From Asterias amurensis (Eukaryota > Echinodermata > Asteroidea > Forcipulatida > Asteriidae): a DNA stretch of 64,000 bases. The translations under genes were made by a program, and so were the position numbers. Location: the NCBI RefSeq assembly GCF_032118995.1, contig NC_092668.1, positions 14,053,501 through 14,117,500 on the forward strand, in the 5' to 3' direction. Positions within the stretch are counted from its first letter, which is position 1; every line of letters begins with the position of its first letter. Of the stretch, positions 21,560-41,928 are shown piece by piece. Under the pieces are notes generated by a model. The model was not told the DNA's origin and searched no databases. It saw only the letters and a list, made by a program, of their open reading frames with translations.

Positions 21560-22045
21560 ACAAAATTTGGCCTAAAATGTAGCCTTTTGAAACTAGTTAA
21601 AATCTATAGTCTTATGAAACAAGTCAAAATTTTGCCTAAAATCTACAAGGCTATAATAGCCTTGTGAAACTAGTCAAAATCTAGCCTTATGAAACTAGTC
21701 AAAACGTTGGCCTAAAACCTACAAGGCTATATATAGCCTTATGAAACTAGTCAAAATCTAGCCTAAAATCTACAAGGCTGAACTTGTCACATTTTGCTGG
21801 AAAAAGTCTACAAGCCTTATGAACTTTTCGCTCAACAAAAAATCACAAGGATGTAGCCTTGTGAATGGCCCCCCCCCCCTGAAAAAAATCACACTGCTAT
21901 AGCCTTGTGAACTTTTCGCTCGAAAAAAATCACACGGCTATAGCCTTGTGATTTTTTCGCTCGACAAAAATTAAGGCTTTTGAACTTTTCGCTCGAAAAA
22001 AATTGCCTTGTGAACTTTTCGTTAGAAAAAAATCATGAGGCTATA
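21560..22045. repeat. Degenerate tandem array with 'tagccttgtgaa' core
   Basis: Units of about 25-45 bp repeat two related cores: 'GAAACTAGTCAAAATCTAGCC' in the first half and 'TTGTGAACTTTTCGCTCG' plus 'AAAAAATCACACGGCTATAG' in the second half. No coding signal. Confidence 0.65.
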
Positions 22046-22299
22046 TTTGATAAAAATGCTGGACTTTACCCCTGATATTTTTCAAGCTTCGCCCCAATTC
22101 TTTCCAGTAAAAAACAAAATAACAACTTCTTAAATTATTGCTTGAAATATTATTATTGGCTTCTATTCAATAAAAAAAGGCTTCAAAAAAGCCTACTGCA
22201 TCATGAAGAGCACAACATCGCACCTTAACAAAAAAAATAGGCAATTGATAAAAGTGCTGGCCTCACCCCTATGATTCTTTCAAATTTCGGCCAATAAAA

Positions 22300-22440
22300 G
22301 GATACCGTTCGTACTACGGTCACGCGCATGCACATCGAGCAAGGCATGCTGGGAAAAGATGGCGATATCAATCACCCCTGGGAACGAGGTTGATGCACCC
22401 CTTAACTCCTCGCGGCCATTTTGTTTCTGAGCGCGGGCAT
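22300..22440. promoter_or_regulatory. Promoter-like segment with ZNF143-type and YY1-type motifs
   Basis: On the minus strand 22336-22357 contains 'TTTTCCCAGCATGCCTTGC', which fits the ZNF143/THAP11 (SBS) consensus with the core TTCCCAGCATGCCTTGC. YY1-like sites are 'AAGATGGCGATAT' at 22356 and 'CGGCCATTTTGT' at 22412. The segment is richer in GC and CpG than its surroundings, with 'GAGCGCGGGCATCG' at its right end. All are motif matches by eye. Confidence 0.5.
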
Positions 22441-23191
22441 CGTGTGTTCAAAGGCGTGTGTGTGGAGGAAAAGCAGATTTTCTGTAACATTTTACACATC
22501 AAAATTTAACAACTTACCCGATGATAACCGCACGGATGTTCATAGAATCTTCTTAATCAGGTAAGTGATTCATGTGTTGATGCAAAAGAGGAAATTTGAG
22601 GGGGTTATAAAACAAGATTGTCTCGGGCAATACAGTCAAACTATTGTCAGCTAAATGTCATAATATAACCCAAGACAAATCGAAGAAACATAGATTGTGT
22701 TAAAATTGACTAAACCACTGAATTCTCGCTCAATACAAGTGAGGAAAATATGGTTAGGGACGGATATTTTTGTTGAAACATTGACTCACATCGGTTTTGC
22801 TGATGAATTCTAACTCTTTGCACTACACGTTTTTTGTTTCTCCAATTCCTTCAAAGTTCAATGCAAGTGTTTAGAGTAAATTCACAGAGCGCACATATTT
22901 TTCTTTGAATTGTTCTCTTGTGTGTTGGGAATTAGATTTGACAACATGAGGTACTGTATGTGTCATGTTTATGTTGAGACAATTTAAAGGCCCCCTGAAG
23001 TAAAATTTCCCAATGCCTTATACTTTCTATATCCCCTCATTATGTATGAACACTAATTTACATCCATACTCTAAATATAATTTTGTTCTTTTTCAGAGTA
23101 CGTGGAGTCTGAATGTTTCCCTTTCATCAGAGTGTATGATGCCTCTCCCTACATCTCAGCAGTCTTTCCAGCCACAACAGCAGTCACTGAG
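22440..23191 (+). other. Candidate 5' exons of an unidentified plus-strand transcript
   Basis: After the promoter-like segment, DNA up to 22560 ends in a strong donor (AATCAG|GTAAGTGA). An acceptor TTTTTCAG at 23096 and a donor CACTGAG|GTACGAG at 23191 bound a possible 95-bp second exon. That exon could start translation at ATG ATG (MMPLPTSQQSFQPQQQSL). The first exon has only a tiny reading frame closed before the donor. I find no convincing downstream coding exon except perhaps the block at 25.87-26.4 kb. It could equally be a non-coding RNA. An opposing donor on the minus strand (ATCATCGG|GTAAGT, at 22518-22517) suggests transcription from both strands. Confidence 0.3.
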
Positions 23192-25080
23192 GTACGAGCC
23201 TCAACCGTTCTGTAAGGCAACCAAAATGTATATTTCTATTACTAGCTATAGGGGTAACATAATTTATACCAACACATTTGCCCAACCTTCTCTCGTACTT
23301 TTTTTATTTCTCCTAAGACCTACATTATTTATGACTTCTCTTTTTTTGTGGGGCCGCCGAAGAATCCGTTAAATTTCTTGTAAAAACTTTCATTTAGGTG
23401 AGCCCTTCTTCTCGATGAAATGTTCATACTTTTCCCTCAAGAGCCAAACATAGTTCCTGTATTACAGGCTAAGCATCATCAATTCGATACTAAACTACCC
23501 TTGAGGTCATTACCTAATATTGTGAATGAGCATTTTTGGAGTTTTGCAACTGATTCTAGTTCACCAAAAGGAACGATTACACTGTATTTCTGTACTTGCA
23601 AACATGGAATTACTGTTCATGAATAATATGTAACTCTAACCGCCCCCCCCACCCCCCCCACCCCCAGGATGTTGAGAAAAAAATTAGCTTTATAATTTTT
23701 AATGCATCCTATTAAATAGGTGTACTTTGTAGTTACTCAAAAAATTAATTACCATGACAACGATAGAGCACTGGCCATGTTGATGTTAAAACAATGTTGT
23801 TGGAAAAACACCCTTTAAAGTAAAATGTAGTTTTAGGGAGAGTGGTAATTTTTTCAAAAAATTTAATCTGAGAAAGGCTTCAGGCATGAAGCCTTTGTCA
23901 TGCATCGGAAAGCACACAATTTTATGCATGGAATGTAGATTTCCTTTCATGTTTTGTTTTCAACTTTCACTGGTTTGTTATTTATGCATTTATTGAGGCA
24001 CACAAAGTGATGAGACAGGTGTTTGAGAATTACCAAAAGTATCCCCAATCTTTATTATTTTCTAAAAGTTACTTTTAATTAGTTCATCAACACCCAGAAG
24101 GGGAATAGGGGATCACCAAAGCCGTTCATAGAACCAATAATTGTCCAAATATTAAGATTAATCAGAAACTAATAAGCAAACCAGACTAGATTGTTTATTT
24201 GAATTTTCAAGACTTTATTTGAACAAAGAAAGAAAACAAAAATAGCAGTTAGTGCATCCACACTGTTAGACATTAACCCCCACCCACCCCTACCTCAAGA
24301 GCTTGATTATGACTAAGATGTATGTTATGTTTCCGGAATGTTTTAATTAAAACAATTTTTGTTTTGGGGGTGCTTTTGCACTCATGTTGCTTCCTTACTA
24401 TTCATTTTGATAGTTGCTTAAATTGATGGTTAGAAATGTGCCAGTTGATGTAAAATAACTTAAACCTCATTGAAGTTATTTCAAAATGTCTTTTTTATTA
24501 ATGCACTTGTCAAGTGCCACAATTCAAAAATTGTATTTGTAAAAACAAATACAGCTTTCAAGTCATACTAGTCTTCATTAAACGTATTGAAATGTGTATA
24601 GTTTCAAAATTCAACTTAAACCCCCCAAACCAGTTAAGAATTTATCCTAGAAAAAACATCAGCTGGCAAATGACAACCATAGCTAAGAAATATAAATGAT
24701 CAACCAAGGAAGAAATGTAACCTGTTTTTTCCAAAAGGAGTTCACATGGCTAAAAAAAAACCTGGCCTCATGAAAACATAAATTATTTGGTTTCCACAAA
24801 CTTGTAAAATAATTGTTTGTGCTTTTTCAGAATATTCCAAGAATCAAAGCGTTTTATTTGTTTATTTCAAACAAATCTAATTAAATTTGACTCCTTTATG
24901 GTTTACAGGTTGCATTTCTTACTTATAAAGAAGGTACAACATTGGTATTCATGTACTGCATATTGAGTGCACAAATTTGAAACAAAAACCATTATCTAAA
25001 ACTTGCAGCGTTTCAAAACAAATTTCTTTATTATGAATGTTTACTTGCATGCTTACCAAAATTTACAATAGCGTAACTAC
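23192..25080. other. AT-rich non-coding stretch
   Basis: No gene can be supported. It contains C-rich runs near 23642 and 24280, a remnant of the M2 element near 23800-24060, and the left end of an inverted repeat near 24918 ('GGTACAACATTGGTA') whose complement is at 25078. Confidence 0.5.
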
Positions 25081-25084
25081 CAAT

Positions 25085-25555
25085 GTTGTATCTTCTGTAA
25101 AGGCCGCATCTTATAGCTTGTTCCGTGACTTTATAATCTCAATCTTGGAAAGTTTTTGAAGTTTTTGCCAATTCCACAAAGGGACACAGAGAGTCAATAA
25201 TTACTAAGTGTTTTTGTCAAAAAATGACTAAGTCCAAAAAAAGACTAAGTACAAACATTGACTATGAGTTTCTGCTCAAAAAATTACTAAGTACAAACAA
25301 TGGCTATTTTTTTTTGTCAAAAAATGACTAAGTCCACAAAAGGACACAGAAAGTCAATAATTACTAAGTGTTTTTGTCAAAAAATGACTAAGTCCAAAAA
25401 AAGACTAAGTACAAACATTGACTATGAGTTTCTGCTCAAAAAATTACTAAGTACAAACAATGGCTAGTTTTTTTGGTCAAAAAATGACTAAGTCCACAAT
25501 GGAACTCCATTTTATTGTTATTTAAAGTCACAACAAGCTATAAGACGATACCTTT
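25085..25555. repeat. Tandem repeat flanked by inverted arms
   Basis: Two units of about 150 bp (from about 25193 and 25345) carry 'GTCAATAATTACTAAGTG', 'TGTCAAAAAATGACTAAGTC' and 'CTATGAGTTTCTGCTC'. Outside them, 'ATCTTATAGCTTGTTC' near 25110 is complementary to 'CAACAAGCTATAAGACGAT' near 25530, so the array sits inside a foldback. Confidence 0.6.
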
Positions 25556-25866
25556 GATAAGGGGCTGCATTCCATTTTGATGTACCTAGCAATATAATCT
25601 TATGGTAATTTGAATTTGACGCCTTGTATTAAGTGTCTTATGCAAATTTCTATGTGATTACATGTTGGTGTACATTACTTTGGGATACAGTCTCTTCTGC
25701 ACCCCTATAGGGGGTGCACTTGGTTGATCATGATTTTAATAATAGGGGGGGTAGGGCCAAACTTTTTACGCAGTTAATTTCGAACCGTACAACGGCACGA
25801 GAATTTTTTTTGGCTGACTTAGTCTATATAAAAAAGGCGTTTTTTAAGGGATTTTTTTGATTTTTT

Positions 25867-26400
25867 TAAGCACCACTGAACTGTAGAAGCAGCAGAGTTG
25901 CGCAAACGTGTGTGCCGGTCGGTGTGGCCAACTACTATCTAGAAAGTGAAGCGACTAAATGATCTAAGTATTAATGGAAGGAAAGCATTTTATTAAGTTA
26001 AATCAAGTTAATGTTTCATTGATAGTCTGTTTTACCAATGTCCTGCCTTACATGATTGACAAACTAAAAAGATTGTTTTTTAAAAGTCCGAAGCCAAAAA
26101 CAAACTTAAGATTTTTTTTCCAAAGTCCAAAACAAAAGTCGGAAAGGATTCTGTTGCCCGTTAAAATGTTTGATGAATCTGAATCAAGTGTACCATCGGA
26201 CGTCTCCCCCTGTTCGGGCAAACACGTCGCTAAGTTCTTGGAGTAAAGTTTCAAGTTCGAATTTTGGTTGAAGTGTAAAAGGATGCTTCCACTCCGTCAC
26301 CGATTGAGTCCTGTACCATCAGAATAACGAAGACTTCAACCCAGATGATGATGCGCTGATCAGAGAAACAAGATTCCAACATGGCGGCTAAACTTGAACA
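25867..26400 (+). repeat. Left block of an inverted duplication (exon-like)
   Basis: It is an inverted copy of 28490-29020. From outside inward: a 78-bp core (25869-25946) with two differences from its partner; the membrane-segment block near 25985-26180; and a terminal block near 26322-26385 reading EDFNPDDDALIRETRFQHGG and stop. The two blocks keep the same order and nearly the same spacing. The frame in the terminal block is also kept at 28.5 kb and 27.8 kb. I treat it as a duplicated piece of a gene, not as transposon ends. Confidence 0.6.
25974..26246 (+). CDS. Hypothetical 90-residue membrane protein or exon
   Basis: This open frame starts MEGKHFIKLNQ, has one hydrophobic segment (about residues 12-30, VNVSLIVCFTNVLPYMIDKL), then a Lys/Arg/Phe-rich stretch and a Ser/Glu-rich tail. 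The inverted partner at 28.72-28.87 kb keeps the frame over the hydrophobic segment (VNVALVVCLTGVLPYMIDKL) with mostly conservative changes. That is the only support for it being coding. I recognise no family. It may be an exon of a larger gene or a decaying copy. Confidence 0.3.
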   Translation: MEGKHFIKLNQVNVSLIVCFTNVLPYMIDKLKRLFFKSPKPKTNLRFFFQSPKQKSERILLPVKMFDESESSVPSDVSPCSGKHVAKFLE

Positions 26401-26789
26401 ATTTTGTGAATTTTTGTGACAAGCACAAAAAAACAGAACTCGAATACGCATTTTCTTTTCAATATTAACAGCATACTCAGGAATGTATTGGTTTCACTTG
26501 CATTAGAAGTACTACACTTCTTCATAAATTTTGTTTCAAATCAATCATAAGTTTTGGATTTGTTAAAACATCACAACATTTTAACAGTGTGTGTGATTAC
26601 ACGTTCAAACAAAGTCAAATTTCAAAGTCAAAAGTGAGGTTGTACACAAACATCAAATTTGCATCTTCATTGCATTGAGTATCGTTACAGGAGATATTGT
26701 AGATGACATTGGGTTTATGGAGGATAACTAGACTGAGAAAAAAAAACTAACAAAAAACAACCTAATCTATCTCTAAACAAAATCTAAAC

Positions 26790-27268
26790 TCCTAAGTACA
26801 ACAAAGTTTCAAATCCTACGGAACTACAAATTGTTAATGAAGTCCCAATAAAGTATTGAACATCTAGGATCAACAACTACTCCTACTGATTAACTTCATG
26901 TAAACCTACAAAACCAACAAATGCATGCTAATGTTTTCGCACCAATTTTAAATTACAATGTTTTTGCATAAAAATGAGTCCGACGTCGATGTCAGAAAAT
27001 TTAGGTTTTATCAGTGACGATAAGATCCTATGTACAACAAAGTTTCAAATCCTACGGAACTACAAATTGCTGATGAAGTCCCAATAAAGTATTGAACATC
27101 TAGGATCAACAACTACTCCTACTGATTAACTACATGTACATATGCAAACCAACCACTGCATACTAATGATTTCGTACCAATTAAAAAGTACAATGTTTTT
27201 GCATAAAACTGAGTCTGACGTAGATGATGGAAAATTAAGGTTTTATTATTAAGTGACGATAAAATCGC
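26790..27268. repeat. Tandem duplication, two units of 236 bp
   Basis: Both units begin 'GTACAACAAAGTTTCAAATC' (26796 and 27032) and run through 'GATGAAGTCCCAATAAAG', 'GGATCAACAACTACTCC' and 'GTTTTTGCATAAAA' to 'AGTGACGATAA'. Identity is high in the first half and lower in the second. Confidence 0.75.
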
Positions 27269-27804
27269 TGAAAACTTGGTGTATTTTCCATCTAGAAAGA
27301 CACCTGTGATTCTGCAAACAGTGCATGACTAAAGTAACAAAGTGAGGTCTATTTAGAATACCTATTCCTGCTGTGTCTTTTTGGCATAATATTCATAACA
27401 AAATCAAGCTAACTAATTTAGTCATTTATTTAATAATTCTACACTAATACTGGACTTGTGTGTATGCTTCCTATATCTACCTAGCCATGTGACAAATTAC
27501 TGTTAGTTCTGAGGTTATTTAACTGAATAAGTCTACATTAATACGCTAATAAACACCTAGTTTGATCCATTGTACACTGCGCTGTTGTACATGTTGAGAC
27601 ATTCTCATGTTTACCATAAAAAAAATTAAAAAAATTGATGGACATCGCACAAATTTGTTTTGTTTCAAAGAGATCTTAACAAAAACAAACACAGGTAGCA
27701 TTTGTTCCCAACAGTTCTACAGGTTTATCTTAAACTTGCCTACTCTTTTCAGAACCTGTCAAAATATTAACGACCAAGTGTCTTTGTCACTTTAACAGCC
27801 TAAA

Positions 27805-27890
27805 TAACTCAAACTTCAACCCAGATGATGATGTGCTGATAAGAGAAACAAGATTCCAACATTGCGGCTAAACAAATTTTGTGAGTTTTT
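27805..27890 (+). repeat. Third copy of the terminal exon-like block
   Basis: It shares about 60 bp with 26322-26385, starting 'CTTCAACCCAGATGATGAT' and running through 'AGAGAAACAAGATTCCAACA', with about three differences. It keeps the same frame (DFNPDDD, RETRFQH). It lies 1.5 kb downstream in the same orientation. Confidence 0.65.
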
Positions 27891-28489
27891 GTAAACCGCC
27901 CGAGTGTCGTCACCATGTTCAGCTGGAAAAAGGTTAATCAGTTGTAAAAACTGTTCACAATTACAAATAATTAATACCATGAAGGATTGAAAACACCTAC
28001 TGCAGTTAAATTACAACGTTTATGAAAAATGTATACAAATCATGCACACCACAGTGGCAATATTTGTTAAAAAAGCAATGTCTATTGATCAACATCATAT
28101 TTGTAAATCATTGATCACTGATTGTCGTTAATATACCTACTGTAGAATCTGTCATAAAGCTGACCACTCAAAACCTACAATGACCAACCTAGTTACTTGG
28201 TCACTGAAATAGACCAATAGTTAACGTCATAGACTGAATATTGTCAACTACTCTAGCTTACGAAGGAGTGTACATACAACCTACTGTGGCTAAGAATTAA
28301 ACCGGTCACAATTACCTAATGCACAACAGCATCTTTCTAAGCGACCATGCTTCTTCTACAATAAAGAGCCCTGTTAACTTCCTACACAATCCCAATGTCA
28401 TCTTTGATATCTCCTTTTGATACAGTAAAAACTTCTTAACACAAGTGAAACCAATGTAAAAGCCTGAGTACCTGATAGAAATGTGAATA

Positions 28490-29020
28490 GCCATGTTCAG
28501 AATCTCGTTTCTCCGACCCTCGCACCAACATCTGGGTAGAAGTCTCCGTCATCCATCAAGTTCAGAGGCTCCCTCAGATCAGAAGAGGATGTCCAGTGTA
28601 GAGAAGTTGCTCAAAAAGTAGACCCGTTTACACAGGAACAGTATAGAGAGACGGGTACCAACTTAGGATAACAAAATGATCAGGTAAAAAATGTGCAAAA
28701 AAGTGCAATGGTCCTCAGTCCTTGACACTTTTGATACAGGCCCCCAAAGACTTCAACAGGCAACCAAATCCTTTCTTTCTTAGGTTTCGTTTTTTTGTCG
28801 GAGATCGAGAAAGTTTAAATAGTTTGTCAATCATGTAAGGTAGGACACCGGTAAGACAGACTACCAGCGCCACATTAACAAGATTTCACTTAATAAAATG
28901 CTTACCCAACCATTAACTCTTGGATCATTAGGTCGTCACACTTTCCAGATAGTAGTTGGCCACACCGACCGGCACACACGTTTGCACAACTCTGCTGCTT
29001 CTACAGTTCAGTGGTGCTTT
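28490..29020 (-). repeat. Right block of the inverted duplication (exon-like, minus strand)
   Basis: On the minus strand the order is: the core at 29016-28938, readable as KQQSCANVCAGRCGQLL and on to a donor-like GTTGG|GTAAGC; the membrane-segment block at about 28880-28720 (VNVALVVCLTGVLPYMIDKL, then SRSPTKKRNLRKK); and a terminal block at about 28612-28499 reading SLHWTSSSDLREPLNLM then DDGDFYPDVGARVGETRF and stop. The terminal block could follow an AG at 28613 in phase 1, the same phase as the array exons at 31-37 kb. It may be a paralogous set of 3' exons. It is unproven as a gene. Confidence 0.5.
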
Positions 29021-29289
29021 CTACAGCATTTAATGAATGGTAACCAATTATTTTACAACATAATTTTTCAAATTATAAAAACAGCCAAGTACAACATTTA
29101 CTATCCTTGAGTTGAAATAAAAGTTAATGTTTCTGTATTTTTTTGTATCAGCTGATGCAAAAAAAAATTAATAAAATTTAGAACTGTTTATTATTACTGT
29201 CACAGCAATGTAAAGGAGAAAAAAAAACATGTTCAAATGAAGTTTGTGACTGTTATGTAAAAAATATTGTACTTTTTAATCAATTTTTT

Positions 29290-29425
29290 TTTTAGTTTGG
29301 ACAGGTGTGCATCACACTTATCCAAACACATCATACCTAAAATGATAAATTTGGTTAACTTGATGATGTACTCGTATTTCATTTTGAGTTTGGACAGGTG
29401 TGCATCACACTTATCCAAACACGTC
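29290..29425. repeat. Two tandem units each containing a hairpin
   Basis: 'GTTTGGACAGGTGTG' CAT 'CACACTTATCCAAAC' occurs at about 29297 and again at about 29389, each a 15-bp stem with a 3-base loop and one or two mismatches. The sequence between and after the hairpins is also duplicated ('GATAAATTTGGTTAA' and 'AATAAATTTAGTTAA'). Confidence 0.7.
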
Positions 29426-29864
29426 GTACCAAAAAGGAATAAATTTAGTTAAAATGATGACCTACTTGTATGTCATGAAGATTGATCCCAAGAACACAAC
29501 TTTAGGATGTGTTCCGCTTGCATTAGTTCTTGTGTGCATGTTGTACTTGGCTTCACAATCATCAAAGTATCAATATAGAACCAGAGGCATTCACACAATT
29601 TGAGTCACAAGCAAATTTTACAGAAATTTGTGTTTTCCTAATTTTCCCAACTTGGGAAAATCTAGCAAAGAAGAGTTTTTAAAGCGAGCAAAGTTTTAAA
29701 AGTAGTAGGGAAAAAAAAAATTGCCAAGAGAGTTTTGGAAAAAAAGACTAAAGTTAAAATTCCGCATTTTGGAAAGTAAAGTCAAACGTTGTATATAAAA
29801 AATTAATGCATTTTTTACGAAGTATTGTGAACTCGTTTCGTGGGAATGTCTCGATAAAATGTAT

Positions 29865-30185
29865 TAAAGACATTGGACACTATTGGTATCTGTCAAAGAC
29901 TTGTCTTCACAGTTGACGTTTCTCAACATATGCATAAAATAACAAACCTGTGAAAATTTGAGCTTAATCGATCGTCAAAATCCTTGTCACACCATGGTCA
30001 CACAAAGTAGTGTGCTCCCAGATGCTTTATTTTGAGGCCTCAAATTCTAAATCTGAGGTCTCAAAATCAAATTCGTGGAAAATTACTTCTTTCTCGAAAA
30101 CTAAGTCACTCCAGAGAGAGCTGTTTCTCAAAATGTTTTATACTATCAACCTCTCCTCATAACTCGTTACAAAGAAAGGTTTTAA
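29865..30185. mobile_element. MITE family M2, degraded copy
   Basis: It begins 'AAAGACATTGGACACTATTGG' in the manner of 20145-20485 and carries the family's internal 'TTTCTCAAAATGTTTTATACTATC'-type stretch and 'CACACAAAGTAG'. Confidence 0.5.
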
Positions 30186-30329
30186 AATACAGAAATATTA
30201 TGCCTCGTTCGCTCTTAAAATCAATCAATCAACCCACCCCAGGGGTAAGGGGAGGACCAATCAATAACAACAATTCATAAAGGTAAAAAATGAAATTTTA
30301 GATACTCTTTTTCGAAACTAAGTTTTAGA

Positions 30330-30850
30330 TACTCGTTTTATACAAATAATGAATGTTTATGAGTGCAATGGTGCGAATACGTTCATGAGTTGAAAGATGG
30401 AATGTTCTATTCAACGAAGAGGAGCCAAGTTGAATGGAACATTCCATGTTTTAATGAATGAACATATTTGCACCCTTGCACGAATGAAAAACATTCAATT
30501 TTTGTTTTATATAACATTCAAGTAGATCTTAGTCATTTTGATTGGAGGAACAATTTTCTTAACAAACAAAGCGTAGGCCTACAATTTCTAATTGTGAAAT
30601 TACACCCGTTTCTTTTGGGTCGGTCTGTTTGACAATGTGCGTTCTGGGATACGCAGAAGCCAATCGCTAGTAATGTGCCTTGGAGTAACACTGCTGCGTT
30701 ACCAAAGACACGTACAATAGTACCTTTCGGATGGAACAAAAATGCACACTGAGTGACTTTAGCATGCAATAGTAATTTTATTTGCCAACACACGGCGGAC
30801 ACTCCTCCAATCAAATGGCAAGGATCTGCTTGGGTGTTATATAACACAAA
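30330..30850. mobile_element. Two adjacent foldback elements
   Basis: At 30335-30500, 'GAATGTTTATGAGTGCAA' and 'ATGGAATGTTCTATTCAAC' pair with 'GTTGAATGGAACATTCCAT' and 'TTGCACGAATG...CATTC'. At 30505-30850, 'ATATAACATTCAAGTAGATC' and 'TTTGATTGGAGGA' near 30535 pair with 'TCCTCCAATCAAATGGCA' and 'GATCTGCTTGGGTGTTATAT'. Both look like non-autonomous DNA elements. Confidence 0.6.
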
Positions 30851-31029
30851 CTAATGTAAGCAACACTGACAGTTGAAAAACACCTTTACCACAGTTCGGC
30901 CATTTTGTCTGGTTCCCTTGTACCGATCGAGACCCGCTCGAAACTCTCAAAGTTTGAAAAAAGAAACCAGACTAAATTTTGATGTCATTTTGTTTCTAGA
31001 GACAATCTTGATGACACTGTCAGTGATAA

Positions 31030-34000
31030 AGGATCCTTATCTTATTTAAGTACCCATACTGGGATGGCATCTCTCTGGCATCAGGTGGTCGTCGTCGTCG
31101 GTGGTGATTTCATCTCCTTGTTCCAGTGAGCTCTTGCCTTGAAGTCCTCTCAGTGTAGACTGATCCAAAGATGTTGATTCTGTTTAGGCGTACTCAATCT
31201 CTTGATGCCTGTAAATCCAAAAAAAAGAAAAATAATAAAAAAATTACTTTTACATAAAAAAATTAACCTTTGGACTTAACCATCCTGGGGTCGATTTCAC
31301 AAAGAGTTAGAAAGATGAACACGTTACAAGTTTCAGCAAAAAAGGTTAATTGGTTCTACTTGCTGAGAAAACAGAAAGAAGCAAACCCCGTCACAGTAGC
31401 GATGAATCCATCCGAGGTAAAGATTTTGATACTACAAATTACGTTTGCTTTTTTTCCCCAAATATGTAAAAACAAATCGGCCAGGGGTTTCCTTACGGGT
31501 GGCGAACCCTTTGTCACTGAATTTTTGCTCTTCTGTTTTCAGAGTTAAAAATATTAAACCAAATATTTGGGGGCTTGTTTTTCAAAACTTATAAATTACC
31601 TTATATGAAGTGGCGCAATTTTCAATGAATAAACACTGTCAAAAATCAGCCTCCTCATCAGTAAGACATCTCTCTGGCATCTGGTAGTCGTTGTTGTCGT
31701 CGTCCTCATCGTCTGTGTTGATTTCATCTTGTTCCAGTGAGCTCTTGCCTTGAGTTCCTCTCAGTTTAGACTGATCCGAAGATGTTGATTCTCTTCAGGA
31801 GTACTCAATCTCTTGATGCCTGTAAATCCAAAAATAAATAAATATAAAATTACTTTTACATAAAAAATGAACCTTTGCACTTAACCATCCTGGGGTCGCT
31901 TTCACAAAGAGTTAGAAAGATGAACACGTTGAAATTTTCAGCAAAAAAGGTTAATTGGTTCTACTTGCTGAGAAAACAGAAAGAAGCAAACCCCGTCACA
32001 GTAGCGATGAATCCATCCGAGGTAAAGATTTTGATACTACAAATTACGTTTGCTTTTTTTCCCAAACATGTAAAAAAAAAATTGGCCAGGGGTTTCCTTA
32101 CGGGTGGCGAACCCTTTGTCACTGAATTTTTGCTCTTCTGTTTTCAGAGTTAAAAATATTAAACCAAATATTTGGGGGCTTGTTTTTCAAAACTTATAAA
32201 TTACCTTATATGAAGTGGCGCAATTTTCAATGAATAAACACAGTCAAAAATCAGCCTCCTCATCAGTAAGACATCTCTCTGGCATCTGGTAGTCGTTGTT
32301 GTCGTCGTCCTCATCTTCTGTGTTGATTTCATCTTGTTCCAGTGAGCTCTTGCCTTGAGTTCCTCTCAGTTTAGACTGATCCGAAGATGTTGATTCTCTT
32401 CAGGAGTACTCAATCTCTTGATGCCTGTAAATCCAAAAATAAATAAATATAAAATTACTTTTACATAAAAAATGAACCTTTGCACTTAACCATCCTGGGG
32501 TCGCTTTCACAAAGAGTTAGAAAGATGAACACGTTGAAAGTTTCAGCAAAAAAGGTTAATTGGTTCTACTTGCTGAGAAAACAGAAAGAAGCAAACCCCG
32601 TCACAGTAGCGATGAATCCATCCGAGGTAAAGATTTTGATACAAATTACGTTTGCTTTTTTCCCCAAACATGTAAAAAAAAATTGGCCAGGGGTTTCCTT
32701 ACGGGTGGCGAACCCTTTGTCACTGAATTTTTGCTCTTCTGTTTTCAGAGTTAAAAATATTAAACCAAATATTTGGGGGCTTGTTTTCAAAACTTATAAA
32801 TTACCTTATATGAAGTGGCGCAATTTTCAATGAATAAACACAGTCAAAAATCAGCCTCCTCATCAGTAAGACATCTCTCTGGCATCTGGTCGTCATTGTC
32901 GTCCTCATCGTCTGTGTTGATTTCATCTCCTTGTTCCAGTGAGCTCTTGCCTTGAGTTCCTCTCAGTGTAGACTGATCCGAAGATGTTGATTCTCTTCAG
33001 GAGTACTCAATCTCTTGATGCCTGTAAATCCAAAAATAAATAAATATAAAATTACTTTTACATAAAAAATTAACCTTTGCACTTAACCATCCTGGGGTCG
33101 ATTTCACAAAGAGTTAGAAAGATGAACACGTTGAAAGTTTCAGCAAAAAAGGTTAATTGGTTCTACTTGCTGAGAAAACAGAAAGAAGCAAACCCCGTCA
33201 CAGTAGCGATGAATCCATCCGAGGTAAAGATTTTGATACTACAAATTACGTTTGCTTTTTTTCCCAAATATGTAAAAACAAATCGGCCAGGGGTTTCCTT
33301 ACGGGTGGCGAACCCTTTGTCACTGAATTTTTGCTCTTCTGTTTTCAGAGTTAAAAATATTAAACCAAATATTTGGGGGCTTGTTTTTTCAAAACTTATA
33401 AATTACCTTATATGAAGTGGCGCAATTTTCAATGAATAAACACTGTCAAAAATCAGCCTCCTCATCAGTAAGACATCTCTCTGGCATCTGGTAGTCGTTG
33501 TTGTCGTCGTCCTCATCGTCTGTGTTGATTTCATCTTGTTCCAGTGAGCTCTTGCCTTGAGTTCCTCTCAGTGTAGACTGATCCGAAGATGTTGATTCTC
33601 TTCAGGAGTACTCAATCTCTTGATGCCTGTAAATCCAAAAATAAATAAATATAAAATTACTTTTACATAAAAAATGAACCTTTGCACTTAACCATCCTGG
33701 GGTCGATTTCACAAAGAGTTAGAAAGATGAACACGTTGAAAGTTTCAGCAAAAAAGGTTAATTGGTTCTACTTGCTGAGAAAACAGAAAGAAGCAAACCC
33801 CGTCACAGTAGCGATGAATCCATCCGAGGTAAAGATTTTGATACTACAAATTACGTTTGCTTTTTTTTCCCAAACATGTAAAAAAAAATCGGCCAGGGGT
33901 TTCCTTACGGGTGGCGAACCCTTTGTCACTGAATTTTTGCTCTTCTGTTTTCAGAGTTAAAAATATTACACCAAATATTTGGGAGCTTGTTTTTCAAAAC

Positions 34001-37000
34001 TTATAAATTACCTTATATGAAGTGGCGCAATTTTCAATGAATAAACACAGTCAAAAATCAGCCTCCTCATCAGTAAGACATCTCTCTGGCATCTGGTCGT
34101 CATTGTCGTCCTCATCGTCTGTGTTGATTTCATCTCCTTGTTCCAGTGAGCTCTTGCCTTGAGTTCCTTTCAGTATAGACAGATCCGAAGATGTTGATTC
34201 CCTTCAGAAGTACTCAATCTTTTGATGCCTGTAAATCCAAAAATAAATAAATATAAAATTACTTTTACATAAAAAATTTACCTTTGCACTTAACCATCCT
34301 GGGGTCGATTTCACAAAGAGTTAGAAAGATGAACACGTTGAAAGTTTCAGCAAAAAAGGTTACATGGTTCTACTTGCTGAGAAAACAGAGAGAAGCAAAC
34401 CCCGTCACAGTATCGATGAATCCATCCGAGGTAAAGATTTCGATACAACAAATTACGTTTGCTTTTTTCCCCAAACATGTAAAAAGAAATCGGCCAGGGG
34501 TTTCCTTACGGGTGGCGAACCCTTTGTCACTGAATTTTTGTTCTTCTGTTTTCAGAGTTAAAAATATTAAACCAAATATTAGTGGGCGCTTGTTTTTCAA
34601 AACTTATAAATTACCTTATATGAAGTGGCGCAATTTTCAATGAATGAACACAGTCAAAAATCAGCCTCCTCATCAGTAAGACATCTCGTCGTTGTCGTCG
34701 TTGTCCTCATCGTCTGTGTTGATTTCATCTCCTTGTTCCAGTGAGCTCTTGCCTTGAGTTCCTCTCAGTGTAGACTGATCCGAAGATGTTGATTCTCTTC
34801 AGGAGTACTCAATCTCTTGATGCCTGTAAATCCAAAAATAAATAAATATAAAATTACTTTTACATAAAAAATTAACCTTTGCACTTAACCATCCTGGGGT
34901 CGATTTCACAAAGAGTTAGAAAGATGAACACGTTGAAAGTTTAAGCAAAAAAGGTTAATTGGTTCTACTTGCTGAGAAAACAGAAAGAAGCAAACCCCGT
35001 CACAGTAGCGATGAATCCATCCGAGGTAAAGATTTTGATACTACAAATTACGCTTGCTTTTTTTTCCCAAACATGTAAAAAAGAATCGGCCAGGGGTTTC
35101 CTTACGGGTGGCGAACCCTTTGTCACTGAATTTTTGCTCTTCTGTTTTCAGAGTTAAAAATATTACACCAAATATTTGGGAGCTTGTTTTTCAAAACTTA
35201 TAAATTACCTTATATGAAGTGGCGCAATTTTCAATGAACAAACACAGTCAAAAATCAGCCTCCTCATCAGTAAGACATCTCTCTGGCATCTGGTCGTCAT
35301 TGTCGTCCTCATCGTCTGTGTTGATTTCATCTCCTTGTTCCAGTGAGCTCTTGCCTTGAGTTCCTTTCAGTATAGACAGATCCGAAGATGTTGATTCCCT
35401 TCAGAAGTACTCAATCTTTTGATGCCTGTAAATCCAAAAATAAATAAATATAAAATTACTTTTACATAAAAAATTAACCTTTGCACTTAACCATCCTGGG
35501 GTCGATTTCACAAAGAGTTAGAAAGATGAACACGTTGAAAGTTTCAGCAAAAAAGGTTAATTGGTTCTACTTGCTGAGAAAACAGAGAGAAGCAAACCCC
35601 GTCACAGTATCGATGAATCCATCCGAGGTAAAGATTTCGATACAACAAATTACGTTTGCTTTTTTCCCCAAACATGTAAAAAAAAAATCGGCCAGGGGTT
35701 TCCTTACGGGTGGCGAACCCTTTGTCACTGAATTTTTGTTCTTCTGTTTTCAGAGTTAAAAATATTAAACCAAATATTAGTGGGCGCTTGTTTTTCAAAA
35801 CTTATAAATTACCTTATATGAAGTGGCGCAATTTTCAATGAATGAACACAGTCAAAAATCAGCCTCCTCATCAGTAAGACATCTCGTCGTTGTCGTCGTT
35901 GTCCTCATCGTCTGTGTTGATTTCATCTCCTTGTTCCAGTGAGCTCTTGCCTTGAGTTCCTCTCAGTGTAGACTGATCCGAAGATGTTGATTCTCTTCAG
36001 GAGTACTCAATCTCTTGATGCCTGTAAATCCAAAAATAAATAAATATAAAATTACTTTTACATAAAAAATTAACCTTTGCACTTAACCATCCTGGGGTCG
36101 ATTTCACAAAGAGTTAGAAAGATGAACACGTTGAAAGTTTAAGCAAAAAAGGTTAATTGGTTCTACTTGCTGAGAAAACAGAAAGAAGCAAACCCCGTCA
36201 CAGTAGCGATGAATCCATCCGAGGTAAAGATTTTGATACTACAAATTACGCTTGCTTTTTTTTCCCAAACATGTAAAAAAGAATCGGCCAGGGGTTTCCT
36301 TACGGGTGGCGAACCCTTTGTCACTGAATTTTTGCTCTTCTGTTTTCAGAGTTAAAAATATTACACCAAATATTTGGGAGCTTGTTTTTCAAAACTTATA
36401 AATTACCTTATATGAAGTGGCGCAATTTTCAATGAACAAACACAGTCAAAAATCAGCCTCCTCATCAGTAAGACATCTCTCTGGCATCTGGTCGTCATTG
36501 TCGTCCTCATCGTCTGTGTTGATTTCATCTCCTTGTTCCAGTGAGCTCTTGCCTTGAGTTCCTTTCAGTATAGACAGATCCGAAGATGTTGATTCCCTTC
36601 AGAAGTACTCAATCTTTTGATGCCTGTAAATCCAAAAATAAATAAATATAAAATTACTTTTACATAAAAAATTAACCTTTGCACTTAACCATCCTGGGGT
36701 CGATTTCACAAAGAGTTAGAAAGATGAACACGTTGAAAGTTTCAGCAAAAAAGGTTAATTGGTTCTACTTGCTGAGAAAACAGAGAGAAGCAAACCCCGT
36801 CACAGTATCGATGAATCCATCCGAGGTAAAGATTTCGATACAACAAATTACGTTTGCTTTTTTCCCCATACATGTAAAAAAAAAATCGGCCAGGGGTTTC
36901 CTTACGGGTGGCGAACCCTTTGTCACTGAATTTTTGCTCTTCTGTTTTCAGAGTTAAAAATATTAAACCAAATATTTGGGGGCTTGTTTTTCAAAACTTA

Positions 37001-37055
37001 TAAATTACCTTATATGAAGTGGCGCAATTTTCAATGAATAAACACAGTCAAAAAT
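31030..37055. repeat. Tandem array: ten ~600-bp units, each with a terminal exon
   Basis: The shared landmark 'TTGATGCCTGTAAATCC' recurs near 31203, 31814, 32419, 33016, 33621, 34223, 34820, 35420, 36018 and 36618, a period of 597-612 bp. Each unit holds, on the minus strand, an acceptor (GGATTTACAG) and a short coding exon. On the plus strand each holds an arm 'CCTGGGGTCGATTTCACAAAG' like that of the MITE at 45925-46085, and the sequence 'GGCCAGGGGTTTCCTTACGG'. Units differ by a few per cent; the first (31.03-31.65 kb) is the most divergent. From 34.07 to 36.5 kb the units alternate between two subtypes, forming a dimeric higher-order repeat of about 1198 bp. Confidence 0.9.
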
Positions 37056-40000
37056 CATAAAATATAAAACCTCTGAAATGAAACGAACCTATTCGTATAT
37101 CAAAATATTTGGGGGGCTTACGTTATTTTTCAAAATTTACCAAATGTCAATTTTTAACTTGAAGTGGCGCAATTTTCAATCAAACACAGTTAAAAAATTG
37201 GCCAGGGGTTTCCTCACGGGTGGCGAACCCTTTGTCACTGAATTTTTGCTCTTCTGTGTTCAGAGTTAAAAATACAAAACCAAATATTTGGGGGCTTGTT
37301 TTTCAAAACTTACCAAATGATAAATCACCTAATAAATATTAAGTGGCAAAATTTCCAACTAACAGTTTAAAAATTGGCCAGAGGTTTCCCTATGGATGGC
37401 GAACCCATATCACTGAAGTTTGCTCTTCAGTGTTAAATATAAAACCTCTGAAATAAAACAAAACTATTTCTAGTCAAATATTTGGGGAGGGGAGGATAAT
37501 TTTCAAAAATTACCAAATTATAAAAGAAATCGCCAGTTAAAATGAAGTGCTGGTACATTTTTCAATTAAACACAGTTAAAACATTGGCCAGAGCTTTCCC
37601 CTACGGTTGGCAAACCTTTATCACTGATTTTTGAGAGGGATAAAACCTCTGAAATAAAATAACAAGTACAAACAAAGAAATTTGGGGTTGCTTTTTTTTC
37701 AAAATTTACGAAATGATAAACCACCTTTTATTCAAACCAAAATTGTGCATTTATCTTTCAAACAAATTGATAATATTGACCAGAGGTTCCCCTACAGGCA
37801 GCAAACACTTTCACTGATTTGTTTTTGTTTCTTTCCTGAAATAAAATAAAACGGTAAACCTAAATATTTTGGGGGTTATATTCTTCAAAAAAAACCATAT
37901 GAAATAAATCACCGAATAAATTTCATCTATTGTGCATGTTTTTCATAAACCTATTTTAGAAATTGCCAGAGGTTTCGCTGTGGGTGGTGCACCCTTTTCA
38001 CAGATTTTATTTGTACATCTTTTTTTAAATTAATTCACAGTTAAATATAAATAATGAAACCTCTGAAAGAAAAAAATACAAACAAAATGTTTTGGTGGTT
38101 GTAGTATAGACAAATAAACAACATAAAGTACGAACATTTTTGTATGTAAACATCAAGATATAAACCTAAACAATTTGGACATTTCCTAAGATAAGGCCGA
38201 GTAAAAATAAAAACATGTTTAGCGTCCGGGTTTCTCAAAAAAGGGAAGGAGGAGGGGCTTTTTATTTTTTATTTCAAGATGGCCACCATTCTTTTTAAAA
38301 TGTCAAATATCCATTGTTTTTTCTACTGCTCAAACACACAATACATAAATGAAACGTATTGGTCAAGACATTCAGATTGTTTTAGCTGAGAACGTTTAAA
38401 AATACCCTTTTAAAAAAATGTGCGTAATTATTTTTTTTTACTGTGCATAAAAAATATATATAAAAAGTTAAAAAGGAGGCGGCATGTAAAAAGGAAGTGG
38501 TCGGGGACGCTAAAAACATGTTTCTTTTTTTAACTTGGCCTAAAACTCCAGTGTTTCACTCACCAGTGGTCCTAGGTCTTTCTGGCTGTAACCTTTTAAC
38601 GACCTTCAACATTCTTGCAAGAGTTGAGACACAGGTAAGAATGATAGACCACACCATGTAATGCAGCTGTAATGAGAAGGAAGACAAAAAGTGACTTTTC
38701 ATTCATTCAAAAATATGATGTCTGTGCTAAGGATAGTGATATATGCGGTCACCACTGAGTGATACAAAGACAAAAAAATTCACTGATAATATTAATAAAC
38801 ACAACTTTACACATTATTATGTTGAAAAACTGTGAATGAAAGGAAGGTTATTTAGTGTTGGTCGATTTTGAAATCATGAGTGCCCGGCACCGGCAGGTTG
38901 CACAGCACAGACCATGCCTCATCATAAGATTTAAAAATCTGAAACATTCATTTTTAAAAAAAGTAAGTCAGACAGTCAATGGGGATAACTTTCCGTATGG
39001 CGCCATCACTTTTTCATTTATTCTTACAAACAAAGGGATATCTCATTGAGGTAAATTAGATACTATAATATTTCATATCGAATTAAAAAGTGGTTGTACC
39101 AAGGGTATTTCTTTTAGGTTTTTTTACCACAATTAAAAAAGATTATTTATTTATTTTGTGTATATAATTTTTGGAAAAGTTTCCGTATGGCGCCACCACT
39201 TTTTCATTTGATATGAAATAATATAGGAACTTATTTACCTGATTGATATATCCCTTTTTCTAAAAATGAGTGAAAAAGTGGTGGCGCCATGCGGAAAGTT
39301 ATCCTAATTTTTTTAAATAAATTACAACATGACTAAACAACAGCGAATGAGCCACCGGGATGCAATCATTACAAAGGATGATATAAAAGGCAATCATTCA
39401 TCTTACAGACAGGCCTAGTAGTTAGTAAGCCGATTATAATGTAAATTACAAAATTAATATTGAAAACTATGTCTACTATTTTATTTATAAATATTTTTTT
39501 TTATACTAACAAAATATTCAACTTTTTTTGTAAACTACAAATTATCAGTCACATATCATTTACATCATCAGAGTCAAAGTCATTGAGCTGAATTTGCATT
39601 AATGTATTTAATATCATATTCAAAGTATGTTGCGATCATGCATCATCAGCCTCCCCCTCCCCCTAGATACGTCCCGACCCCGCCTACCCATTTTATAAAT
39701 AACGCACAAGTCCAGGGGGCCATCGCACACAACTTTACAAGCTCCGGTTTCCACAAGAAATACATTAATTCTAAACTTACTTTTTGCATTTACTTTGTGA
39801 GGGCACGTCTTGCATTTTATAACTACCGTTCATTTTTCAGGAAACGGTAAAATGGAGCCAAATTGCGGGCAAAATTCTCTTGAAGAAGCAAATGACTCCT
39901 CTCCGTCCATGTTTTTGAGAAATTCTAATCCCGCGTGCGTTTCTGAATGGGCCGCACGTGATATATCAAGCTGGACTTCATCCGATAATTCAGCGTTGAA

Positions 40001-41928
40001 TTTTGTTTAGGGTATCTGACTAGGTATTAAAATAGGAATCGCGTCCTCTGTTGGCGGATTGCGGCCATGTCCGAAACGGCGACTTCGGCTACAGCTACGG
40101 CTAGATCGCCCGCGTCTGCCTACTCTTCAACACTAGTAGACGCGCTGATCTAGACGTAGCTGTAGCCGAAGTCGTTGTTTCGGACACGGCCGTGGCCGGT
40201 GAGCAGCAACAGTGTAAACTTTAAGGAACTTTGGCTGCGGTTACCTGGGCCCAATTTCATTGAAATGCTTTCGTTAGGCAGAAAATATTACTAAATCTGC
40301 CAAAAAATTAAATAAAAGCAGGATAGTCGCATAAACAATTTATACGTACAATGACATTGTATTTTTGCTGGTGTATTATTCTGGTATGCACATGAAGTTT
40401 GGCCCTGTTTCCTGTGCTCTGATTTTTCTTGGAAGTCTAGACTAAATGAAGCTTACAAAATGCTTGTATGGGCAGTGTTGTTGTCAATACCATAGGCCCA
40501 GATTCATAGAGCTGCTTCTAAGCACAAAAAGTAGCTTAGCACAAAATGCTTAATACCAGAAAGAGCTTTACCAGCCAACCTAACCATGTCATGTTACACT
40601 TTGTGACTAGCCTGCACATTTTTTTAATTCATAAAATGGCCGACAGTGTTAGTTCGCAAAGTAAAACCAATATTGAAGCGTAGTTTCTTTGTGTGGATCA
40701 TTCTACTTTTAAAACATCTTTCTAACAATAATTATGCGTTTCATGACAAACGGTTTCGACGCTTTTCATATACCAACTCGAACCGTCCAATGCAATTAAG
40801 CAACTCTATGAAATTGAGCCTGGTACGCCTGAGACGGCAAGGTTCAAGACCAAGAGACCACGACAAAGAACACCGATATAGGGGCAGGTGTTATATTCAA
40901 GATAATTTTGATATCTTAGAGAATGATGCGCAAATTTATAAGTTGTTTACAAACCTGTAAAGAGAAGGGAAAACATTAATAAGTTATTTAAAAAACCTGT
41001 ACAGAGAAGGGAAAAATTAATAAGTTATTTACAAACCTGTAAAGAGAAGGGAAAAAATTAATAAGTTATTTACAAACCTGTACAGAGAAGGGAAAAAAAT
41101 TAACAAGTTATTTAGAACCTGTAAAGAGAAGGGAAACAATTAATAAGTTATTTACAAACCTGTAAAGAGAAGGAAACAAAATAATAAATTGTTTACAAAC
41201 CTGTACAGAGAAGGGAAAAAAATAATAAGTTATTTACAAACCTGTAAAGAGAAGGGACAAAATTAATAAGTTGTTTACAAACCTGTACAGAGAAGAGAAA
41301 AAATTAATAAGTTATTTACAAACCTGTAAAGAGAAAGGCCAAAATTAATAAGTTATTTACAAACCTGTAAAGAGAAGGGACAACATTAATACGTTATTTA
41401 CAAACCTGTAAAGAGAAGGGAAAAAATTAATAAGTTATTTACTTTAAGTTTAAACCTGTAAAGAGAAGAGAAAAAATTAATAAGTTAGGCCTATTTACAA
41501 ACCTGTAATAAGAAGAGAAAAAAGTTAATAAATATTTACAAACCTGTAAAGAGAAGGGAAAAAATTCCCCAATTAGTATCAGTTCAGCAGTTTTTATTTC
41601 CGAACAAGCAGGCATTTTGCTAAATAATGTTGGCTGACAGGATTGTATGCACATTGTGCAGTTTTGGGCGTTTCAAAATGGCGTCCGTGGCGACTTCAAA
41701 CGTAACGCACTCACCCATCCAGTGCGGTCTGAGGCCCAAACACGCAAACATAAAACATAAACGTATCAGGAAAGGCGTATTCTCAATATATCACCCTATA
41801 AAACATACCTTGGTATCTGCGGTCAGTCTCTGTCGAACAGCCACATTTACACGAATCCTATTGATGGGCTTGAAGGAGACATTTTGTCTGAAGTTTACAT
41901 CAATGGATGTCAAATTTCCCCCCTTCAT
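31150..41928 (-). CDS. Hypothetical single-pass membrane protein with alternative last exons
   Basis: Proposed exons: 41928-41809 (ATG at 41928; donor ACCAAG|GTATGT), 38666-38564 (acceptor CATTACAG, donor CCACTG|GTGAGTG) and 31208-31150 (acceptor TTTACAG, TGA). They join in phase to 93 residues: a basic N-terminus MKGGNLTSIDVNFRQNVSF, a hydrophobic segment at about residues 44-58 (MVWSIILTCVSTLARML), a basic stretch VVKRLQPERPRTTG, then IKRLSTPKQNQHLWISLH. The last exon exists in ten tandem versions, any of which fits the phase. Nine other versions lie at about 31761-31819, 32366-32424, 32963-33021, 33568-33626, 34170-34228, 34767-34825, 35367-35425, 35965-36023 and 36565-36623, reading STPEENQHLRISL in most. 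I recognise no family. The middle exon is the best supported; the link to 41.8 kb is inferred from phase only. Confidence 0.4.
37055..38060. repeat. Decayed ~190-bp units next to the 600-bp array
   Basis: 'TTGGCCAGAGGTTTCCC(T)' recurs near 37199, 37373, 37584, 37776 and 37962. Each copy is followed by 'TGGCGAACCC'-like, 'AAACCTCTGAAATAAAA' and 'AAATATTTGGGG'-like stretches, a period of about 185-210 bp. The same motifs occur once per 600-bp unit, so these look like an older or ancestral form of part of the array unit. Confidence 0.75.
38980..39303. mobile_element. Foldback element with three arms
   Basis: The outer arms 'GGATAACTTTCCGTATGGCG' (38984) and its complement ending at 39303 bound the element. 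A third arm 'GTTTCCGTATGGCGCCACC' lies inside near 39179, in the left-arm orientation. The arms continue as 'CACTTTTTCATTT'. The extra arm suggests an insertion of one copy into another or an internal duplication. Confidence 0.7.
39840..40020. other. CpG-containing segment with open frames on both strands
   Basis: On the plus strand a 53-codon frame starts MEPNCGQNSLEEAND after an acceptor-like TTCATTTTTCAG. On the minus strand a frame reads NAELSDEVQLDISRAAHS and ends PFPEK then stop. Neither has a matching donor, and I cannot choose. It may be a 5' exon or promoter region of an unidentified gene. Confidence 0.2.
40060..40200. mobile_element. Inverted-repeat element with long GC-rich arms
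   Basis: 'GGCCATGTCCGAAACGGCGA' and 'CTTCGGCTACAGCTACG' pair with 'CGTAGCTGTAGCCGAAG' and 'TTTCGGACACGGCCGTGGCC'. Arms are about 55 bp with a 40-bp centre that is itself partly self-complementary. It shares the 'ctacagctacggc' arm with 12790-12900. Confidence 0.7.
40495..40830. mobile_element. MITE family M1 copy
   Basis: The arms 'GGCCCAGATTCATAGAGCTG' and 'CAACTCTATGAAATTGAGCC' bound about 330 bp, with internal 'gcttagcac' motifs. Confidence 0.55.
40935..41570. repeat. Minisatellite, about 14 units of 45-50 bp
   Basis: The core 'TTAATAAGTTATTTACAAACC' followed by 'TGTAAAGAGAAGGGAAAAAA' repeats head to tail. Variants alternate between 'TGTAAAG' and 'TGTACAG'. It has no coding signal and lies in the proposed first intron of the hypothetical membrane protein gene. 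Confidence 0.85.

Follow-up and report, generated by a model that had tools for sequence, protein, structure and literature searches.

A duplicated RPA12 gene with a tandemly amplified last exon, very probably decayed, in the sea star Asterias amurensis

Dispersed families of duplicated pseudogenes, or duplicons, keep their introns and are present as many unprocessed, decaying copies on several chromosomes. In Helitron-type gene capture a gene piece with introns likewise lies in a repeated block with internal tandem repeats, and tandem exon duplication, as in mutually exclusive exons, likewise repeats an acceptor and its exon in one phase. The locus described here, from the sea star Asterias amurensis, resembles each of these systems in part. 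It lies within a stretch of 64,000 nucleotides (contig NC_092668.1 of assembly GCF_032118995.1, positions 14,053,501 to 14,117,500; hereafter the window), the minus strand of which carries an array of ten units, each with a splice acceptor and a short terminal exon. As judged from peptides and phases, this exon is the last exon (exon 4) of RPA12/POLR1H, a small subunit of RNA polymerase I, and the locus is very probably a duplicated, decayed and functionless copy of the RPA12 gene in which this exon has been multiplied in tandem. With RPA12/POLR1H of Asterias rubens (P0001) and human (chain 7ob9_I) it shares exon peptides, intron phases and the C-terminus HQEIEYS, whereas the window copy lacks exon 3, contains stops, has lost a zinc-binding cysteine and holds exon 4 tenfold. 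Unlike in duplicons, one terminal exon is repeated in tandem in each of the 21 copies compared, in arrays of 2-11 units that were apparently begun before dispersal. Unlike in Helitron capture, no helicase, defined ends or insertion-site evidence was found (four open reading frames scanned). Unlike in mutually exclusive exons, the upstream partner exon is missing from the window copy, the products are nearly identical and the units are truncated in the 3' untranslated region (3' UTR). No paper on such an arrangement was found among the abstracts listed by literature searches.

The repeated exon and its source gene

An earlier note on the window had described ten tandem units of ~600 bp, each with the acceptor TTTACAG and a 59-nt terminal coding exon in phase with an upstream exon at 38666-38564. 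It proposed either mutually exclusive last exons giving C-terminal variants or a satellite that captured a last exon, and it placed a possible gain in the dosage of splice or polyadenylation sites. The units are indeed as described, with TTTACAG/GCATCA at the acceptor and exon start in all ten and the reported peptide present in the sequence; the array is not unique, however, and has many matches elsewhere in the genome. The RPA12-derived features of the window are as follows.

39781..39910, minus strand: exon 1 (N-terminal zinc ribbon), with TGA at 39832-39830, a lost cysteine (CPQF) and the donor GTAAGT at 39780; found by tblastn of P0001, copy alignment and comparison with the genes on contig C15
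38564..38666, minus strand: exon 2 (the upstream exon of the earlier note), shifted in frame by 1 nt against the C15 gene, with an in-frame TAA
37060..38150 (limits approximate), minus strand: intron-2 remnant, with diverged direct repeats of ~200 nt related to the second half of the array unit
31061..37056, minus strand: ten tandem units with exon 4; no exon 3 found (unit and splice-acceptor reading, tblastn)
36599..36623, minus strand: coding part of exon 4 in unit 1 (HQKIEYF and stop), at the same place in the nine other units
30959..31090, minus strand: native 3' UTR tail and downstream sequence, occurring once, past the last unit

Three further exons were exposed by aligning copies of the locus. 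The exon 1+2 peptide of another copy on contig C21 (C21a) matches the RPA12-like protein of A. rubens (P0001; E 6.1e-35, 85% identity) and, weakly, human RPA12 in the PDB (7ob9_I; E 0.01); RPA12 is the best match of the exon peptides. A Pfam scan of the bare exon 1-2 peptides returned no family; the Zn_ribbon_TFIIS domain was found in P0001, the C-terminal end of which reads CPSCKHQEIEYS. Exon 3, as read in other copies, ends in TGCAA/GTAAGT; its final AA and the G that opens the unit exon together make the lysine codon AAG. This phase fit, together with the C-terminus HQEIEYS followed by a stop, therefore identifies the unit exon as RPA12 exon 4 and most of its 59 nt as 3' UTR: in the RPA12 frame the stop lies 25 nt past the acceptor, not at 59 nt. 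The phase match claimed for 38666-38564 is arithmetically correct, but the frame in which it was read is one base off that of RPA12 and was rejected as the gene's frame on this comparison; the natural donor is the phase-matched exon 3 rather than exon 2.

The unit exons start at 36623, 36021, 35425, 34823, 34228, 33626, 33021, 32424, 31819 and 31208, and the nine complete units measure 595-611 nt. In the RPA12 frame they read HQEIEYS (six of ten), HQKIEYF (three) or HQEIEYA (one), each followed by a stop. Units 1, 3 and 5 on the one hand and units 2 and 4 on the other form two alternating types (units 1 and 3 are 100% and units 2 and 4 99.3% identical, neighbours ~96%), a ~1.2-kb pattern confined to the proximal end of the array. 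Intron 2 joins a unit directly at ~37056.

At two loci on contig C15 the frame of exons 1 and 2 is open and the cysteine pair reads CPQC, and exon 3 is 97% identical to P0001 (genome search with P0001, 150 of 169 candidates scored); the exons of the gene at C15:1.59 Mb spell out P0001. Over the 1201 and 1001 nt read at these two genes, exon 4 occurs once in each and closes with TCC TAA. The dispersed copies have the intron positions and phases of the C15 genes (the exon 3 boundary being taken from other copies than that of the window), and the 3' UTR of their units matches as well. Two marks set the family apart from the C15 genes: CPQF stands in place of CPQC in six of the seven copies in which exon 1 was read, the seventh being frameshifted there, and a 14-nt deletion past the TCC of exon 4, relative to the C15 genes, is present in 97/97 units with the exact preceding 12-mer. 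In-frame stops were counted by hand in 19 of 48 exon-1 matches, the C15 genes being among the 48.

The window copy itself combines the exon-1 TGA with a one-base deletion in exon 2, which in the RPA12 frame reads TALHGVVYHSYLCLNSCKNVEGR followed by a stop, and exon 3 was found neither by tblastn with P0001 nor by the genome search. The window exons give no sign of function, and nothing in them as read suggests that this copy could make RPA12. Origin as a processed pseudogene (retrocopy) was also considered and rejected, as the introns are kept.

Dispersal of the block and origin of the unit

The genome searched comprises 491,506,623 bases in 23 contigs. The array unit has 421 matches (31 of 129 candidates scored), those listed falling on C1, C7, C13, C14, C17, C19 and C21, and a 27-mer of exon 4, allowing at most three mismatches, occurs 264 times, compared with 0 for a reversed control; among the 100 places listed for it, two are on C15, one per gene. 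Across 21 loci we counted 137 units, the counts being lower bounds where a stretch ends. In the C21 group the units are mostly ~600 nt long, and the window copy is most similar to other C21 copies.

Read along a unit of ~800 nt, the intron-3 end is succeeded by exon 4, a portion of the 3' UTR and, lastly, the intron-2 end. The intron-2 sequence breaks off 88 nt ahead of where exon 3 would start and continues directly into the final part of intron 3 (C21c_pre 1898/2745). C14a, L019 and C21c, from each of which one unit was compared, have this junction in common, and the break in the window unit falls in the same region (1881/2745). A junction common to copies on different chromosomes points to one event before dispersal. 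We propose the following history as the best account of the locus, the order of its events being inferred. Before the block dispersed, a tandem duplication would have run from intron 2 to the 3' UTR of the last exon, and the duplicate would then have lost ~846 nt with exon 3, leaving the ~800-nt unit (intron-2 tail, intron-3 tail, exon 4 and truncated 3' UTR). The block of ~18 kb, now present at no fewer than 40 loci distributed over ten contigs, would have dispersed after that, and its arrays would have grown and shrunk to their present sizes, presumably by unequal exchange. The window copy, moreover, lacks exon 3 as well as the sequence that preceded its first unit, and both exon 1 and exon 2 in it are broken.

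The block in which the array is embedded has two parts to be distinguished.

21987..40061, minus strand: whole duplicated block of ~18 kb, common to the copy C21c at C21:13.65 Mb
21987..31060, minus strand: 3' module accompanying the RPA12 part, ending near a palindromic minisatellite

The downstream limit of the block corresponds to 21987 in C21c, ~22098 in C21a, ~22274 in C1a and ~21765 in C14a. A probe from the 3' module (28500-29300) matches in full at 40 or more places distributed over ten contigs (40 of 106 candidates scored), and in 40/40 of the matches listed an RPA12 exon or array unit lies 1.7-5.8 kb upstream on the same strand; none of the 44 module matches listed from the same search is on C15. 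The 5' side of the block is common to a C15 gene and so does not form the clean end of an element.

Two mechanisms of spread were considered, both compatible with the reading of the locus as a decayed duplicate. The block may have travelled and multiplied as a mobile element, for instance a Helitron-like one, that picked up RPA12, although this is somewhat less likely than not. The 40 loci on ten contigs, the constant adjacency of module and exons, the differing outer 5' flanks of the copies aligned and the minisatellite near the 3' end (in the window, C14a, C1a and partly C21a, its motif not being found in C21c) are consistent with such a carrier. On the other hand, no coding or transposase family was found at cut-off in the four open reading frames of the 3' module scanned (frames of at least 85 aa were listed for five copies), the window copy has no convincing terminal inverted repeat, and the 5' limits vary among copies, with the promoter side shared with a C15 gene. 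Spread as a segmental duplication by ordinary recombination is a possibility of only slightly lower weight: introns and promoter side are kept, 22/40 module loci are on C14 and C1, and the window copy is closest to its C21 relatives, whereas dispersal over ten contigs with similar block ends and content speaks against it.

As to the 3' module itself, a palindromic minisatellite (TAGCCTTGTGA...TCACAAGGCTA) lies at 21574-22033; in C21c an apparently inverted piece of an array unit was seen by eye in its place. Segments 28600-29100 and 25868-26066 hold inverted repeats of each other of ~200 nt (~87%) with no Rfam match, and identity to the C14a copy is 99.2% in the 28500-29000 bin but 92-95% in the neighbouring bins. 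Between 20 and 42 kb, Rfam gave three weak matches to microRNA families only, below the gathering score, and a tRNA scan found none.

Within one genome there seems to be a series that begins with the lone last exon of the C15 genes and passes through exon-3-bearing repeats (C19) to repeats of exon 4, ~800 nt long and, on C21, ~600 nt long. Such a series could allow one to follow how the terminal exon of a gene gives rise to a satellite-like array. Gene predictors may build false genes at such loci, and the A. rubens entries P0003 and P0008, annotated as 'RPA12-like, partial', may be such copies.

Constraint and the question of alternative last exons

Several observations weigh against copies that were neutral throughout and against a simple history. 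Between loci the 59-nt exon has diverged by 0.073, compared with 0.105-0.119 in other parts of the unit (112 units, found by a probe that includes exon 4, which may bias exon conservation). The condition that the earlier note had named as refuting its reading, exon divergence as fast as in the rest of the unit, thus has a mixed outcome: the exon diverges more slowly, but 45 of 753 unit windows of the same size lie lower still (window median 0.108). All of the 112 units retain the acceptor AG; the mean for 45 other AGs is 0.898, and three of these do as well. Exon 3 has a ratio of nonsynonymous to synonymous differences (pN/pS) of 0.34 (14 sequences from 11 loci, leaving out, as in all exon-3 analyses, L027:1660, a further tblastn fragment of an exon already included) and is open in several copies, so that death is not demonstrated for all copies. 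It was detected in 11 of the 21 loci, some stretches being cut short, and it recurs every ~1.5-1.9 kb in several C19 loci and every 1.3-3.3 kb in others, a history richer than one line. Three loci (L014, L015 and L012) combine two exon-3 matches with a long first unit spacing and are possible intermediates between exon-3-bearing and exon-4-only repeats.

In these alignments the conservation of exon 4 and its acceptor runs against neutrality across the whole history. No clear codon-position signal was found in exon 4 in any frame, and HQEIEYS with its stop is read in 52 of the 92 units matched for the peptide tally, the 20 of 112 unmatched by the regular expression being left out. Exon 3 differs from the C15 gene by pN 0.021 and pS 0.148, and its family consensus at two sites, both synonymous; intron 3 is 74-77% identical to that gene (gaps counted, in the nine alignments of full length). 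Constraint was lower on exons 1 and 2 (pN 0.071 in seven copies and 0.077 in nine). Among singleton exon-3 substitutions, 13 are nonsynonymous and five synonymous, a share not below the neutral one (p 0.33 and 0.52, two models), and the shared changes are six of each (p 0.026 or 0.065, by neutral model), which makes the evidence for old constraint modest. The pattern suggests that the founder was constrained and that its copies decayed after dispersal, and exon 4 may be conserved because constraint was inherited from this founder, as exon 3 suggests. It is improbable, though conceivable, that the founder was a working RPA12 paralogue with a row of interchangeable last exons, which had lost the N-terminal zinc ribbon and was selected for its C-terminal TFIIS-like ribbon, and that a few copies, such as the C19 exon-3 repeats, may still make such a protein.

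Very unlikely is the proposal that the array functions today as a set of alternative last exons chosen among by a transcribed RPA12 paralogue. It would account for the intact acceptors in ten of ten window units, the conservation of exons 3 and 4 relative to introns and the phase of exon 3. The window copy, with its broken exons 1 and 2 and no exon 3 found, is hard to reconcile with it, the singleton changes in exon 3 look neutral, and there is little for splicing to choose between: six of ten units encode the same seven residues and the others differ by one or two, so that useful C-terminal variants are not supported. Nor do the units bring their own 3' end signals, as far as the native tail and AATAAA/ATTAAA are concerned. 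Neither hexamer is present in any of the ten window units as cut, and of the 21 arrays 19 have one native tail, located past the final unit, its pattern having no match in the other two (L018 and L021). Polyadenylation sites belonging to the individual units are thus not supported.

An unrelated satellite with a splice-like motif and a chance exon is rejected: although the units are tandem, dispersed and locally homogenised, they encode the RPA12 C-terminus in the right phase past exon 3 and match the 3' UTR of the C15 genes. Of the captured satellite proposed earlier, the idea of a repeat holding a last exon, real by origin, comes close to what is seen.

Other features of the window

Just upstream of the duplicated block, at 40932-41566, lies a 41-bp minisatellite of ~15 copies, most of which carry the acceptor-like motif TTTACAGG or TGTACAGG on the minus strand. 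Open reading frames on the plus strand at 17.5-18.6 kb presumably belong to an NFU1-like gene. On the minus strand at 46.4-62 kb is a gene with PDZ and Y_phosphatase domains, which we take to be PTPN13-like, and between its exons a 147-bp tandem repeat (50171-50885) forms a long Pro/Thr-rich open frame.

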